Source: an uncultured Sphingomonas sp.
Lineage (GTDB): Bacteria; Pseudomonadota; Alphaproteobacteria; Sphingomonadales; Sphingomonadaceae
Direction: 5' to 3'
Assembly (NCBI RefSeq): GCF_902806265.1
Contig: NZ_CADCVZ010000027.1
Span: 1-39,763 of the forward strand
DNA: 39,763 bases
The notes under the pieces are model-generated. The model had not been told where the DNA came from, searched no databases, and saw only the letters and a program-made list of their open reading frames with translations. The stretch's first letter is position 1. Every line of letters begins with the position of its first letter. Shown one piece after another: positions 6,685 to 38,990 of the stretch. A program made the position numbers and the translations under genes.

Positions 6685-6699
6685 GTTCTTGTGATGTTC
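6685..6699 (+). promoter_or_regulatory. LexA-box-like GTTC-N7-GTTC
   Basis: GTTC-TTGTGAT-GTTC begins 2 nt after the hslU stop and ends 54 nt before the GFA-family gene. It matches the alphaproteobacterial LexA consensus GTTC-N7-GTTC. About one chance match would be expected somewhere in a window this size, so the intergenic position is the main support. Confidence 0.45.
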
Positions 6700-6753: not shown

Positions 6754-7155
6754 ATGGCTGAAGCAGGTGGCTGCCACTGCGGTTCGGTGAGCTATGAGCT
6801 GAGGGAAGGCGCCGCGCCGGTTCATCATGCGCTGTGCCATTGCGCAGACTGCCGCAAGTTCAGCGGCGCTCCGGCGGTGGCGTGGACTCTCTTCGCCAAG
6901 GAGGATGTCACCGTCAGGGGAGAGCCGGCGCGCTATCGCAGCTCGGAGCATGCGGAACGATACTTCTGCGCCACTTGCGGCAGCAGCCTCTTCTACACGA
7001 ACGACCAGATCTTCCCGGGTCAAATCGACATCCAGTCAGCGACGCTCGATCGACCGGATGCCTTTCCGCTGCAAGCGCAGATACAAACAGCCGACCGCAT
7101 CGGGTGGATGGAGAACCTTGACGGTCTGCCTCAGTTCGAGCGCTATCCGAGCTGA
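6754..7155 (+). CDS. GFA / CENP-V family zinc protein
   Basis: A 133-residue protein of the glutathione-dependent formaldehyde-activating (GFA) family. All seven zinc cysteines are visible at the family spacing: C7 and C9 (CHC), C28, C30 and C33 (CHCADC), and C72 and C75 (CATC). The original member accelerates S-hydroxymethylglutathione formation from formaldehyde, but most relatives have unknown activity, so a detoxification role is only an inference. ATG 6754 follows GGAG. The gene stands alone between hslU and a convergent gene whose 3' end overlaps it by 13 bp. Confidence 0.88.
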   Translation: MAEAGGCHCGSVSYELREGAAPVHHALCHCADCRKFSGAPAVAWTLFAKEDVTVRGEPARYRSSEHAERYFCATCGSSLFYTNDQIFPGQIDIQSATLDRPDAFPLQAQIQTADRIGWMENLDGLPQFERYPS

Positions 7156-33910: not shown

Positions 33911-35377
33911 CTAAGCCGTCAGCTCGTCCGCCCGTGCCTTGATGCGGCGAAGGTCTTCGACGAAGCGGGCGCGCTCGGCCGCCTTGCGGTCCTCTTCCGG
34001 GATGCGGAGGAGGAAGGAAGGGTGCACCGTCACCCAGCATTCGCTGCCGTCGACCAGGGTCAGCGGAGCCTCGCGCGCGCGGCTGATGGTCACCGTCTTG
34101 CCGGTGAGCGACCGGGCGGCGGTGGCGCCAAGGGCGACGGTGAGCGGCGGCTTAATCAGCGCGCGTTCCTGCTCCTGCCACCAGCGGCAGGCCTCGATCT
34201 CCCCGGCGTCCGGCTTGGAATGGATCCGCCGCTTGCCACGCGCCTCGAACTTGAAGTGCTTGACGGCATTGGTGACGTAGGTCTGCGAGCGGTCGATCCC
34301 GGCTTGCTGGAGCGACGCGTCGAACAACTGGCCGGCGGGGCCGATGAAGGGACGGCCGGCAAGGTCCTCCTGGTCGCCTGGCTGCTCGCCGACGAACAGG
34401 ATGGCGGCGTCGAGCGGCCCTTCGCCGAACACCGTCTGCGTGCCGCACTTGTAGAGGTCGCAGCGGGTGCACTGCCGCGCTTCGGCCAGCAGCCCTTCCC
34501 AGGCCGCGCGGAGATTGCCCCCGGGCTCGATCCGGCGCTCGGCTTCGAGCGCGCCCGCCATGCCGGCCTCAGCCGCCGACCGATCGATCATCTCCACCTC
34601 CCTCGCCCGCGCGCCGGCAATCAGTGGAGCGATCAACGCGCTTTCCGGCATGTTGCGCCAATATTTCTTGGGCATCTCCTTGGTCATGGCTTTGACCTTG
34701 AGCCGGGCCGGGTTGAAGACCGATGCGTAGTAGGTCTTCCATGTCTCCTCGAGCGGGTCGCCGCCGGGCGCGTCCGCCTTGGTCGCACCCGGACCTTCGG
34801 TCAGCGTCGTCCCGTTCCAATGGATGCTGAGCTCGGGCGTCAGGATCGACCAGCGCATGTTGGCGAAGCGACGCACGAAGAAACCGGCCTCGCGCCGGAC
34901 GATATGGTGCTCGGGCTCGAACCAGGCCACGAAACGTGTCTTGTTGTCCTCCTCCTCGACTTCGCGGAAGCGGACGAAGGCGTGCATCTTGTGCGCGTCG
35001 CGGCGCACCTCCTTGGCAAGCCGCTCGAGCCGGTCGAGCAGCGGGTCGGCGCGGTCCTCCATCGCCTTGCGGTTGCCCTGCAGCTTCCACAGCATGGCGT
35101 AGAGCAGGCCGAAGCGCTCCGGGTCGGAATGGCATACGACCGCCTTGGCCAAGTCGACGAACTGGCGGAGCACGGAGAAGCTCGGTGCGGCCGGGGGGCG
35201 TGGCGCGTCGCCGCCGAACAGGTCGCCGACGCCGCCCTCGACGATCCAGACTACCCGTTCAGGGGCAGTGCCGGCTTCGATCAGGTCGCGGGCGGCATCG
35301 CGCCAGCCGTCGAAATCATCGGCCGCGGCGAGGGTGATGCGAACCGGCTGATCGGCCGAGCGACCGGCGATGCTCAT
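33911..35377 (-). CDS. udgX: DUF4130 / UdgX-type uracil-DNA glycosylase fusion
   Basis: A 488-residue two-domain protein. Residues about 1-275 are a DUF4130 (TIGR03915-type) domain of unknown function, with HKMHAFVRFREV and WSILTPELSIHWN. Residues about 290-488 are a family-4-like uracil-DNA glycosylase of the UdgX group: GEQPGDQED at 330-338, the R-loop KRRIHSKP at 382-389, and HPSFLLR at 452-458. Cysteines C303, C306 and C397 are candidate Fe-S ligands. UdgX is known to form a covalent bond to the uracil site through the histidine of KRRIH (here H386), leaving the protein tethered to DNA. It normally sits beside the radical SAM gene found at 36873-38117; here a glycosidase gene lies between. 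Confidence 0.92.
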   Translation of the reverse strand: MSIAGRSADQPVRITLAAADDFDGWRDAARDLIEAGTAPERVVWIVEGGVGDLFGGDAPRPPAAPSFSVLRQFVDLAKAVVCHSDPERFGLLYAMLWKLQGNRKAMEDRADPLLDRLERLAKEVRRDAHKMHAFVRFREVEEEDNKTRFVAWFEPEHHIVRREAGFFVRRFANMRWSILTPELSIHWNGTTLTEGPGATKADAPGGDPLEETWKTYYASVFNPARLKVKAMTKEMPKKYWRNMPESALIAPLIAGARAREVEMIDRSAAEAGMAGALEAERRIEPGGNLRAAWEGLLAEARQCTRCDLYKCGTQTVFGEGPLDAAILFVGEQPGDQEDLAGRPFIGPAGQLFDASLQQAGIDRSQTYVTNAVKHFKFEARGKRRIHSKPDAGEIEACRWWQEQERALIKPPLTVALGATAARSLTGKTVTISRAREAPLTLVDGSECWVTVHPSFLLRIPEEDRKAAERARFVEDLRRIKARADELTA

Positions 35378-35427: not shown

Positions 35428-36876
35428 ATGTTGCTCCAGATCGGCTTTGCGCCTTCCATCGACTTCGACCGCGAACGCGGCCCGCTCCCGTGGATCACGG
35501 TCGCGCCCGGGGCATCTTACTTCGTTAACGAGCGGGGCCAGCCATGGACCCCCATCGGGCAGAACGACGCGATCAGCTGGCCGGAACTGGCCGGCCTGTT
35601 CCGTCGGCGCGACCTCCCGAGCGTGGAGGCGCACCTGCGCTGGCTCCGCGCGCACGGGGTCACCTGCCTGCGGCTGATGCTGGAATATGCGCAGGTGCGG
35701 CATCGCTATTTCGAGCGCCCGGCGGGGCGTTTCGTTCCAGCCATGGTGCAGCTGTGGGACGACCTGTTCGCCATGTGCGAGCGAGTCGGGCTGCGCATCC
35801 TGCTGACGCCGGTCGATACCTTCTGGATGTGGCTGCACTGGCGGCATCACCCGTGGAATGCGGCGAACGGCGGACCGCTCGGCTCGATGCGGCAGTGCCT
35901 GCTGTGCCCCGCCACGCGCGAGCTGATCAAGGGCCGGCTGGAGTTCGCGGTGCGGCGCTGGGGCGGCTCGGGCGCGCTGTTCGCATGGGACCTGTGGAAC
36001 GAGATTCATCCCGCGCACAGCGGGGACGAGGTCGGCGGGTGGGACGAGTTCATCCACGACCTGTCGAGCCATGTCCGCGGGCTGGAGTTGCAGCTCTACG
36101 GGCGCTCGCACCCGCAGACCGTGTCGCTGTTCGGGCCGGAGCTGGAGCTGAAGCCGCACCTGCCGATGCGACCCTCGGTGTTCCGCCACACCGACCTCGA
36201 TTTCGCGACCCTGCACATCTACGCCAAGGGCACGATCGACAACCCGCGCGATACGGTCGCGCCGGCCGTGGCGATGGGCGATATCGTGCGGGAGGCGCTA
36301 GCCGAGATCGCCGACGGGCGTCCGTTCCTCGACACCGAGCATGGGCCGATCCATGCGTTCAAGGACCGCAAGCGGACGCTGCCGGAAGCGTTCGACGACG
36401 AGTATTTCCGGCATCTGGCCTGGGCTCATCTGGCGTCGGGTGGCGCGGGCGGCGGGATGCGTTGGCCCAACCGCAGCCCGCATGTGCTGACTGCCGGCAT
36501 GCGGGCGGCGCAGAAGGCGATGGCGGGCTTCTTGCCGCTGGTCGACTGGACGCGATTTCGGCGGCGCAATCTCAACGACGAGGTGCGTATGCGGCACTTT
36601 CATGCCTTCGCCTGTGGTGACGAGCGGCAGGCGGTGCTGTGGCTGCTGCGGCGGAACGCGCTTGGTGCAGGCGGGCGGGTGCGGACGGACGCGGTTCCGG
36701 TCGAGGCGAAGGTCAGCCTGCCGGGCCTTGCCAATGGCGAGTATCGGCTACGCGGCTGGAACACGTCGGCTGGTGCCGTCGTCGAGGAACAGCGGGTTCA
36801 GGTTTCCGGCGGCGTGCTTCGGTTCACCTCGACCCCGATCGTCGCCGACCGCGCCTTCGCGATCGTGCCGGCCTAG
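35428..36876 (+). CDS. GH-A clan glycoside hydrolase (GH5-like)
   Basis: A 482-residue glycosidase. The (beta/alpha)8 barrel motifs are visible: WLRAHGVTCLRLMLEYAQ, AWDLWNEIHP with acid/base E192, and RPFLDTEHGP with nucleophile E304, as in cellulases and mannanases of GH5 and relatives. A C-terminal beta-rich region (about 400-482) could be a small sugar-binding or sandwich domain. No signal peptide is seen, so it is probably cytoplasmic, which is unusual for polysaccharide hydrolysis; an oligosaccharide substrate is possible. It starts 50 bp from divergent udgX, and its stop overlaps the stop of the opposing rSAM gene inside CTAG. Confidence 0.75.
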   Translation: MLLQIGFAPSIDFDRERGPLPWITVAPGASYFVNERGQPWTPIGQNDAISWPELAGLFRRRDLPSVEAHLRWLRAHGVTCLRLMLEYAQVRHRYFERPAGRFVPAMVQLWDDLFAMCERVGLRILLTPVDTFWMWLHWRHHPWNAANGGPLGSMRQCLLCPATRELIKGRLEFAVRRWGGSGALFAWDLWNEIHPAHSGDEVGGWDEFIHDLSSHVRGLELQLYGRSHPQTVSLFGPELELKPHLPMRPSVFRHTDLDFATLHIYAKGTIDNPRDTVAPAVAMGDIVREALAEIADGRPFLDTEHGPIHAFKDRKRTLPEAFDDEYFRHLAWAHLASGGAGGGMRWPNRSPHVLTAGMRAAQKAMAGFLPLVDWTRFRRRNLNDEVRMRHFHAFACGDERQAVLWLLRRNALGAGGRVRTDAVPVEAKVSLPGLANGEYRLRGWNTSAGAVVEEQRVQVSGGVLRFTSTPIVADRAFAIVPA

Positions 36877-38117
36877 GCGGCGAACAGCTCCAGCTGCTTT
36901 TGCTTGGGCTTGAGCAGCGTCGGCAGGTCGGCGCGGTCGGTCAGCAGCGTCGGGCGCCAGTCGGCGGTCACGATGAACGGCCGCACCTTGGCGACGCTGA
37001 CCGTCAGCCGCGCAACGTCGTCCAGGGTGAAGCGGCGGAAGCGGCGCGACTTGAGGATGCGGTCGACCGCCTTGGTGCCGAGCCCCGGCACCCGCAGCAG
37101 CTGCTCGCGCGGGGCGCGGTTGACGTCCACCGGGAAGTGCTCGCGAAACTTGAGCGCCCAGGCCAGCTTCGGGTCCATGTCGAGCGGCAGCATGCCGTTC
37201 GCGTCCGCCGCCTGCACCACCTCCGCCGGCTTGAAGCCATAGAAGCGCATCAGCCAGTCGGACTGATACAGCCGATGCTCGCGCATCAGCGGCGGGCGTT
37301 GGAGGGGCAGAACGGCGCTGGCGTCCGGAATGGGCGAGAAGGCGGAATAGTAGACGCGGCGCAGCGCGAAGCGGTCGTAGAGGGTCGAGGCCTTGCGGAC
37401 GATGTCCCCGTCGCTCGCCGCGTCCGCGCCGACGATCATCTGCGTGGATTGTCCGGCCGGTGCAAACCTGGGTGCTGACTTGAAGCGCTTGCCTGCGTCC
37501 TTGGTCTCGTCGATCGCGCCCTTGACCTCGCCCATCGCGCCTTCGATCCGGGCAGCGCTCTTCTCGGGCGCAAGGCGCTTCAGCCCCGGCTCGGTCGGCA
37601 GCTCGACGTTGATCGACATGCGGTCGGCATGGAGCCCGGCCTGCCGCACCAGCTCGGGATCGGCATCTGGGATGGTCTTGAGGTGGATATAGCCGCGGAA
37701 GTCGTGATCCTCGCGCAGCGAGCGCGCGACCTCCACCAGCTGCTCCATCGTGTAGTTGGACGAGCGGACGATGCCGGAAGAAAGGAACAGCCCCTCGATG
37801 TAGTTACGCTTGTAGAAGGCGAGCGTGAGGTTGACGACCTCCTGCGCCGTGAAGCGAGCGCGGCGGACGTTGGAGCTCTTGCGGTTGATACAGTAATGGC
37901 AGTCGAAGATGCAGCTGTTGGTCAGCAGGATCTTGAGCAGGCTGATGCACCGACCGTCGGGCGCATAGGCGTGGCAGATGCCCATGCCCTCCGATGAGCC
38001 CAGGCCCTTGCCGTCGCGGCTATCCCGCTTGGTCGTGCCGGAAGAAGCGCAGCTCGCGTCATATTTGGCCGCGTCCGCCAGGATTGCCAGCTTCTCGCGA
38101 GTGTCCAGCTGCGCCAT
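36873..38117 (-). CDS. UdgX-linked DNA modification/repair radical SAM protein
   Basis: A 414-residue radical SAM protein of the type annotated as putative DNA modification/repair rSAM linked to UDG (TIGR03916-like). The 4Fe-4S/SAM motif is CIFDCHYC at 69-76 (C69, C73, C76). Further signatures are SSGIVRSSNYTMEQ, HLKTIPDAD, SINVELPTEP and VDVNRAPREQLLRVPGLGTKAV at about 330-350, a helix-hairpin-helix that suggests DNA binding. Its reaction is unknown. An SOS box and promoter overlap its start, with a predicted leaderless mRNA. Its usual partner udgX lies on the same strand downstream, beyond the glycosidase gene. Confidence 0.92.
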   Translation of the reverse strand: MAQLDTREKLAILADAAKYDASCASSGTTKRDSRDGKGLGSSEGMGICHAYAPDGRCISLLKILLTNSCIFDCHYCINRKSSNVRRARFTAQEVVNLTLAFYKRNYIEGLFLSSGIVRSSNYTMEQLVEVARSLREDHDFRGYIHLKTIPDADPELVRQAGLHADRMSINVELPTEPGLKRLAPEKSAARIEGAMGEVKGAIDETKDAGKRFKSAPRFAPAGQSTQMIVGADAASDGDIVRKASTLYDRFALRRVYYSAFSPIPDASAVLPLQRPPLMREHRLYQSDWLMRFYGFKPAEVVQAADANGMLPLDMDPKLAWALKFREHFPVDVNRAPREQLLRVPGLGTKAVDRILKSRRFRRFTLDDVARLTVSVAKVRPFIVTADWRPTLLTDRADLPTLLKPKQKQLELFAA

Positions 38118-38152
38118 GCGTTCGATATATGTTCACGGGCAAGCGCTGTCCA
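38118..38152 (-). promoter_or_regulatory. LexA box and leaderless promoter of the radical SAM gene
   Basis: On the minus strand GAAC-ATATATC-GAAC (38134 to 38120) fits the alphaproteobacterial LexA box exactly. A -35 TGGACA (38152-38147) and a -10 TATATC (38129-38124) are 17 bp apart, with the -10 inside the box spacer. Six nt follow before the ATG, so +1 falls at the A of the start codon (38117). No Shine-Dalgarno is present, which agrees with a leaderless mRNA. Confidence 0.75.
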
Positions 38153-38180: not shown

Positions 38181-38990
38181 TCACACCGGCAGCTTGGATC
38201 GCGCCGCCCGTGCCGCGCCCTCCACCGGCACGTCGTGGATAACGCGGTAGCGCGCCTCGATCAGGCTGAAGATGCCGAACATCATCAGCCCCACCGCCAC
38301 GATCGAGTCCCAGGGGTTGGTCAGCCAGGCGAGTGCCTCGCGCATGCCGCCGGCTTCGCTGGCCTGCTCGTCAAGACCGGCTTGCAGCAGGAAGTAGCCG
38401 GTGATCAGGAAGACGAGACCGCGTGCGGCATAGCCGAGCCGGCCCACCCACTTGACCCATGACTCGTTCGCGACCCGGGCGTCGAGGTGCTTGCGGAAGC
38501 TGGTCTTGTACGCCTTGATCAACTGGTAGAGGCCGACGCCCAGCAGCACGAGTCCGCCGAGCAGCAGCAACAGGGCCCCGCCGGGCAGGCCGAGGGCGGT
38601 TTGCGCGCCCTGCTCCGCTCCGCCGCCGCCGCCGCCGCTGCTGCTGCTCGCGGTGCCACGGATCAGCCGCACGGCCTGCCAGGCCAGGAACAGGTGGACG
38701 AGCCCGCTCGCCGCGGCGCCGAGCCGCTCGCCCAGCCCCTTGGAGCCGTCCGGGTGCCGCTCGATGTTCAGCGCGGCATCGGCCAGCCGCCACAGCCCAT
38801 AGGCGAGCAGCCCTGCCGTCATCAGGATCAGCAGCCACTTGCCGGCGCCGCTCGCCAGTACCTGCAGCGCTCCGCTGGGGTCCTCCGCCCGCCCGCCGCG
38901 CAGGACCAGGAAAGCGATCACGAGGTAGAGCAATCCGCGCGCGGCGAAGCCGAGGCGGGTCAAAGTGGTCAGGCGCGCGGAAGCGTTCAT
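38181..38990 (-). CDS. DUF1206 membrane protein
   Basis: A 269-residue integral membrane protein with six predicted helices in three similar pairs. The DUF1206 signature LTRLGFAARGLLYLVIAFL at residues 7-25 recurs near 180 as VGRLGYAARGLVFLITGYF. An Ser/Gly-rich loop (about 115-127) lies between pairs. Function is unknown. ATG 38990 has AGGAGG upstream. It lies 63 bp upstream of the rSAM gene on the same strand, but that gene has its own promoter. Confidence 0.88.
   Translation of the reverse strand: MNASARLTTLTRLGFAARGLLYLVIAFLVLRGGRAEDPSGALQVLASGAGKWLLILMTAGLLAYGLWRLADAALNIERHPDGSKGLGERLGAAASGLVHLFLAWQAVRLIRGTASSSSGGGGGGAEQGAQTALGLPGGALLLLLGGLVLLGVGLYQLIKAYKTSFRKHLDARVANESWVKWVGRLGYAARGLVFLITGYFLLQAGLDEQASEAGGMREALAWLTNPWDSIVAVGLMMFGIFSLIEARYRVIHDVPVEGAARAARSKLPV
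38620..38646. repeat. (CCG)6(CTG)3 trinucleotide tract inside the DUF1206 gene
   Basis: Six CCG units followed by three CTG units encode, on the minus strand, the loop SSSSGGGGGG. Unit changes would keep the frame and only alter loop length. Confidence 0.85.

Follow-up and report, generated by a model that had tools for sequence, protein, structure and literature searches.

We found that a TIGR03916-family radical-SAM gene in an uncultured Sphingomonas sp. is very likely transcribed from a LexA-repressed, sigma-70-type promoter that is fused to the start codon, an arrangement predicted to give a leaderless mRNA. Its sequence context makes it very probable that DNA damage induces the gene and that its transcript has no untranslated leader. 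Strong comparative evidence assigns this radical-SAM family, which has received little study, to the alphaproteobacterial DNA-damage response, and in most of the sampled Sphingomonadales the predicted transcription start is fixed on the start codon.

A predicted operator and promoter packed against the start codon

The gene and its upstream elements lie near the end of the window, that is, the whole stretch of 39,763 nucleotides that was analysed:

36873..38117, minus strand: TIGR03916 radical-SAM gene, 414 aa (NCBIfam score 572.4 bits, cut-off 343.5)
38117..38115, minus strand: ATG start codon
38118..38119, minus strand: two-base spacer GC from operator to ATG, of the same length in 89 of 108 distinct relatives
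38134..38120, minus strand: LexA-type operator GAACATATATCGAAC (GAAC-N7-GAAC), assigned by sequence and conservation
38129..38124, minus strand: -10 element TATATC inside the operator spacer, positions -12 to -7
38152..38147, minus strand: -35 element TGGACA, positions -35 to -30 if +1 is the A of the ATG
38181..38990, minus strand: DUF1206 gene, 63 bp upstream of the radical-SAM gene

The initial annotation had placed GAAC-N7-GAAC immediately before the ATG of a TIGR03916-type radical-SAM gene, and both parts of this statement hold: the profile score is well above its cut-off, and the box ends two bases from the start codon. The plus strand from 38120 to 38134 reads GTTCGATATATGTTC, a GTTC-N7-GTTC direct repeat that overlaps the promoter of the gene, as would be expected of a LexA-regulon member. 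The two hexamers, TGGACA and TATATC, are separated by 17 bp as had been claimed, and six bases follow the -10 hexamer before the ATG, so that under the usual -35 to -30 and -12 to -7 numbering the A of the ATG becomes the predicted +1, the register of a leaderless transcript. The position of the -10 element inside the LexA spacer was likewise borne out, and inspection by eye showed nothing resembling a Shine-Dalgarno sequence ahead of the ATG at 38117, in agreement with the proposed lack of a ribosome-binding site. Together, operator, promoter and start codon occupy about 35 bases.

This arrangement leads us to infer that LexA occupies the site, that transcription starts at the predicted +1, that DNA damage induces the gene and that translation is leaderless, as follows. 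When bound to GAAC-N7-GAAC, LexA would mask the -10 element and adjoin the start site, blocking RNA polymerase. DNA damage would lead to RecA-stimulated self-cleavage of LexA and free the site; the polymerase would then start at the A of the ATG, and ribosomes would read the resulting leaderless mRNA without a Shine-Dalgarno sequence.

The protein itself has the CxxxCxxC motif at residues 69-76 and matches Pfam Radical_SAM over the cut-off, with a helix-hairpin-helix match (HHH_3) near the C-terminus that scores 22.1, below the Pfam cut-off of 27. It had no sequence match among solved structures at 1e-3.

The box is conserved at a fixed distance from the start codon

Sequence comparison of two samples shows the box and its conservation, as well as the register of the promoter and the constant two-base offset to the start codon. 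Within the genus, 55 of the 71 genomes searched match the gene (a match is absent in the other 16), from which 30 loci were fetched, including our own; the second sample consists of the best 80 of 589 confirmed stretches from named genomes. The 110 relatives examined gave 108 distinct upstream regions after two duplicates were dropped (L049 = L061 and L053 = L062). They include Sphingomonas, Novosphingobium, Erythrobacter, Sphingobium and similar genera, some being assigned only to a phylum or class; we take the four named genera to belong to the Sphingomonadales, and for Actirhodobacter and Pacificimonas this was looked up. Start codons were placed from the protein match, with eight of them shifted where the match began at residue 2 or 8.

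Conservation in close relatives had been set beforehand as what the reading depends on, and we found the box within 100 bp upstream of the gene in 107 of the 108 distinct relatives, compared with a mean of 0.28 in 100 shuffles. The sole exception (L077) has a box with one mismatch at the same place. Furthermore, the box stands exactly two bases before the start codon (box at -17) in 89 of the 108, a position that was reached 0 times in 100 shuffles. The distance is three bases in seven relatives and four bases in two; one more (L114) was scored at 26 bases from a later residue and has an in-frame ATG two bases past the box.

Eight relatives have 12-27 bases between box and start (L119, L120, L123, L132, L133, L136, L138 and L139), the lower value resulting from an in-frame ATG in L132, as by the starts used the eight span 13-27. 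Three of them have a Shine-Dalgarno-like string after the box, and this group looks like an apparent switch between leaderless and leadered forms. A general Shine-Dalgarno contrast between two-base and longer offsets was not found, since AGGA, GGAG or GAGG occurs between -20 and -4 in 19 of the 89 two-base-offset loci versus 3 of the 19 others. In about 16 of the 89, a Shine-Dalgarno-like string lies inside the box itself.

Promoter elements are kept in exact register

We aligned the 89 two-base-offset loci on the start codon (85 ATG, 4 GTG). Upstream of it, conservation is confined to three places: positions -36 to -30, the box together with its T-12 and A-11, and position -2, which is a purine in 86 of 89. 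Conservation of the GAAC half-sites is fixed by the selection of this set; that of T-12 and A-11, which lie outside the half-sites, is not, and each is present in 89 of 89 loci. Positions -13, -10 and -9 are more weakly conserved, and -7 of the -10 element is not conserved. In the -35 region we observed T-35 in 80, G-33 in 83 and C-31 in 68 of the 89, which agrees with the initial placement of this element; the complete T.G.C pattern is found at the exact register in 61 loci, compared with 0-6 loci at 39 other registers. The regions from -60 to -37 (maximum 0.20 bits) and from -29 to -19 (maximum 0.32 bits) are nearly flat, so that relatedness does not explain the conservation. Codon-like periodicity begins, by eye, at the start codon, which supports the start assignment.

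The lexA and recA genes served as controls. A single match to the lexA model was obtained in the genome, whose lexA and recA both carry the GAAC/GTTC direct-repeat box, which indicates that the motif is the right one for the LexA of this host. In the genus, the distance from box to start codon is 13-50 bp for lexA (27 of 30 loci, in which a start was found; three are omitted). A perfect box in the other orientation precedes recA in all 30 fetched loci, at 66-97 bp from the recA start, which could be placed in 29 of them (one is omitted). TA at the matching place of the spacer was seen in 0 of 29 genus recA boxes in either orientation. These controls indicate that the two-base offset and the TA are not general properties of LexA boxes.

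Comparison across the class

In the class, 29 of 387 genomes match the gene over the cut-off, our own included, which leaves 28 further loci, some of which may overlap the 108 relatives. Searching 120 bp upstream of the profile match, we found the box in 24 of the 28 (4 of 4 in our own family, 20 of 24 outside it). Four lack it in this orientation; in L149, one of these four, a box in reverse orientation stands further upstream. Box and start codon are 1-2 bases apart in seven loci (families f1, f18 and f52), 4-6 bases in four and 9-31 bases in 13, and some of the 9-31-base intervals contain Shine-Dalgarno-like strings by eye (for example L162 and L168). With at least nine bases in 13 of the 24, leaderlessness is not universal. 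T-12 is present in 21 and A-11 in 22 of the 24, whereas the -35 element has no fixed place across the class (T-35 in 11/24).

Collectively, these results indicate that predicted SOS control is widespread in the class, as is the putative operator with its -10 bases, and that the leaderless register is the variable part, apparently a trait mainly of the Sphingomonadales and a few other families. We consider it likely that in the Sphingomonadales a single conserved module of about 35 bp combines operator, core promoter and start codon and would yield a leaderless SOS mRNA, while other alphaproteobacterial families keep the operator and the TA with 9-31 bases to the start codon, some of them Shine-Dalgarno-like. 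Repression, transcription start and translation start would be tied together in such a module and therefore none could drift alone. Leaderless translation may be advantageous under damage stress.

Alternative explanations

Taken alone, the box at 38120-38134 could be chance. GAAC-N7-GAAC occurs twice in the window with 0.81 matches expected, and at least two matches were obtained in 16 of 100 shuffles; similarly, the 2.33 Mb genome has 65 matches, mostly inside genes, versus 49 for the same pattern read backwards as a control. A single site accordingly proves little, and its significance rests on the conservation, that is, on the counts of 107 and 89 among the 108 relatives set against the shuffles. 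An accidental placement beside the ATG is refuted by the recurrence of the box at the same place in those 89 relatives between nearly flat flanks, and we regard its probability as negligible.

The repeat could also be the site of another regulator, such as the general-stress sigma factor EcfG. The EcfG promoter begins with GGAAC, and a G at -18 extends the box to GGAAC in 38 of the 89 loci. However, initiation by EcfG from either half-site would start transcription inside the gene, and the lexA and recA genes of the genus carry the same direct repeat, which makes this reading very improbable. An EcfG-type promoter, searched for as GGAAC-N16/17-CGTT, was found in 1 of 108 loci and was rejected. 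It is less improbable, though still unlikely, that the LexA site is real and the mRNA is leadered, coming from a second promoter further upstream or by read-through from the DUF1206 gene, with the hexamers being incidental. That gene lies on the same strand at a distance of only 63 bp, so read-through could supply such a transcript. In the 19 two-base-offset loci with AGGA, GGAG or GAGG, a leadered transcript could make use of this string. In Zymomonas, by the account of PMC7566282, an additional leadered start lies upstream in about half of the leaderless units (52). On the other hand, the 89 relatives share no conserved element between -60 and -37, and they keep the -35 and -10 elements in exact register.

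The udgX gene is separated from the predicted SOS promoter

The usual partner of the radical-SAM gene is present in the window and is not adjacent to it:

33911..35377, minus strand: gene for a DUF4130/TIGR03915 - UdgX/TIGR03914 fusion, the usual radical-SAM partner
35428..36876, plus strand: glycosidase-like gene between the radical-SAM gene and udgX

The description of the radical-SAM gene as UdgX-linked is only partly true here: udgX does lie nearby on the same strand, but a gene on the opposite strand separates it from the promoter, so that the one-operon arrangement, with udgX on the same strand within 150 bp, is interrupted. Of the 110 loci, 60 show such an arrangement and 33 have udgX at a greater distance; in the remaining 17 we saw no udgX, and for 11 of these the downstream sequence amounted to 1.5 kb or less. 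The product of the inserted gene weakly matches a DUF5060 protein in the PDB (E 1.2e-6, 62 residues) and has no Pfam match at 1e-3. The inserted gene stands beside the radical-SAM gene in six genus genomes (our own, G066, G067, G065, G006 and G017; in G065, the sequence fetched ended short of udgX). We did not see the inserted gene in G004, in G060 or at the other loci searched.

The UdgX copy has both the GEQPG motif and the KRRIH sequence of the R-loop, which are described as UdgX features in PMC10359453, and its motif B reads HPSFLLR, with F where the same source gives S or A. UdgX is reported there to bond covalently to AP-DNA. Our guess, drawn from the partnership and the shared regulation, is that the radical-SAM product helps to process damaged or UdgX-crosslinked DNA.

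We found no LexA box before udgX in the window, the 300 bp upstream containing nothing closer than two mismatches, and thus in this species predicted SOS control probably extends to the radical-SAM gene and leaves out udgX. In 4 further genomes with the inserted gene, we searched the 300 bp ahead of the predicted start of udgX and found no perfect box. Two of the 33 relatives whose udgX lies beyond 150 bp downstream have a perfect repeat between the two genes; it falls immediately within the predicted udgX start in one case and 364 bp ahead of it in the other. The separation of udgX in some species provides a natural experiment on whether joint induction of both proteins is needed.

Relation to known systems

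SOS control of this family has precedents in the literature. For the comparison, we take COG4277 to be the TIGR03916-type protein. LexA-type regulation of COG1573-COG4277 in Bacteroidetes is predicted in PMC8565304, which also cites earlier reports of SOS-regulated uracil-DNA-glycosylase repair in Verrucomicrobia and Alphaproteobacteria (Erill 2016, Paes da Rocha 2008); for the Alphaproteobacteria, we rely on its account of them. That system resembles ours in the SOS control of a uracil-DNA-glycosylase gene and its partner; it differs in that the Bacteroidetes motifs are different and that in the window the two genes are separated, and the main text of PMC8565304 on COG1573-COG4277 does not use the word "leaderless". 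The GTTC-N7-GTTC motif is the same as that given in PMC8565304 for alphaproteobacterial SOS operators and as that at the host's own lexA and recA. Compared with the lexA and recA operators of the genus, which lie 13-97 bp from the start codon, the radical-SAM box is only two bases away and holds the TA of the -10 element.

Leaderless mRNAs, whose transcription begins on the start codon or close to it, are frequent in the class, as reported for Caulobacter (375 leaderless mRNAs; PMC4117421) and Zymomonas (119 leaderless start-gene pairs; PMC7566282), and LexA does not appear in the main texts of these two papers. In E. coli, stress is described as favouring leaderless mRNAs through MazF cleavage in the mazEF system, not through promoter position. 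Our searches found no literature linking UdgX with LexA or UdgX with radical SAM, and no radical SAM, uracil or leaderless in the main texts of the Caulobacter SOS papers searched, and in a Deinococcus paper the term leaderless turned up solely in a reference; among the matches listed, there was also no description of a conserved fusion of operator, promoter and start codon. Published work already covers SOS control of a gene pair of this kind; as far as we searched, the new part is the predicted start-codon-fused promoter. This promoter offers a simple way to ask whether SOS conditions favour leaderless translation.

Other SOS-like sites

Perfect repeats also stand 15-66 bp from the starts used at lexA, recA and the following candidate SOS genes:

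L016:406-1476: PA0069-family radical-SAM gene with an upstream box
L182:1-1467: rmuC with an upstream box
L200:787-1446: S24-peptidase gene with an upstream box
L003:1232-1456: DUF3072 gene with an upstream box

The host's own lexA has two boxes with one half-site in common (L180:1534-1559), and a similar double box occurs in several relatives. The first of these boxes appears to hold a -10 element, TTACAC, 17 bp past TTGACA, and the gene has a leader with the ribosome-site-like GGGAGAG. The second perfect GTTC-N7-GTTC in the window lies at 6685-6699 on the plus strand, 54 bp before a GFA-domain ORF at about 6754-7155.
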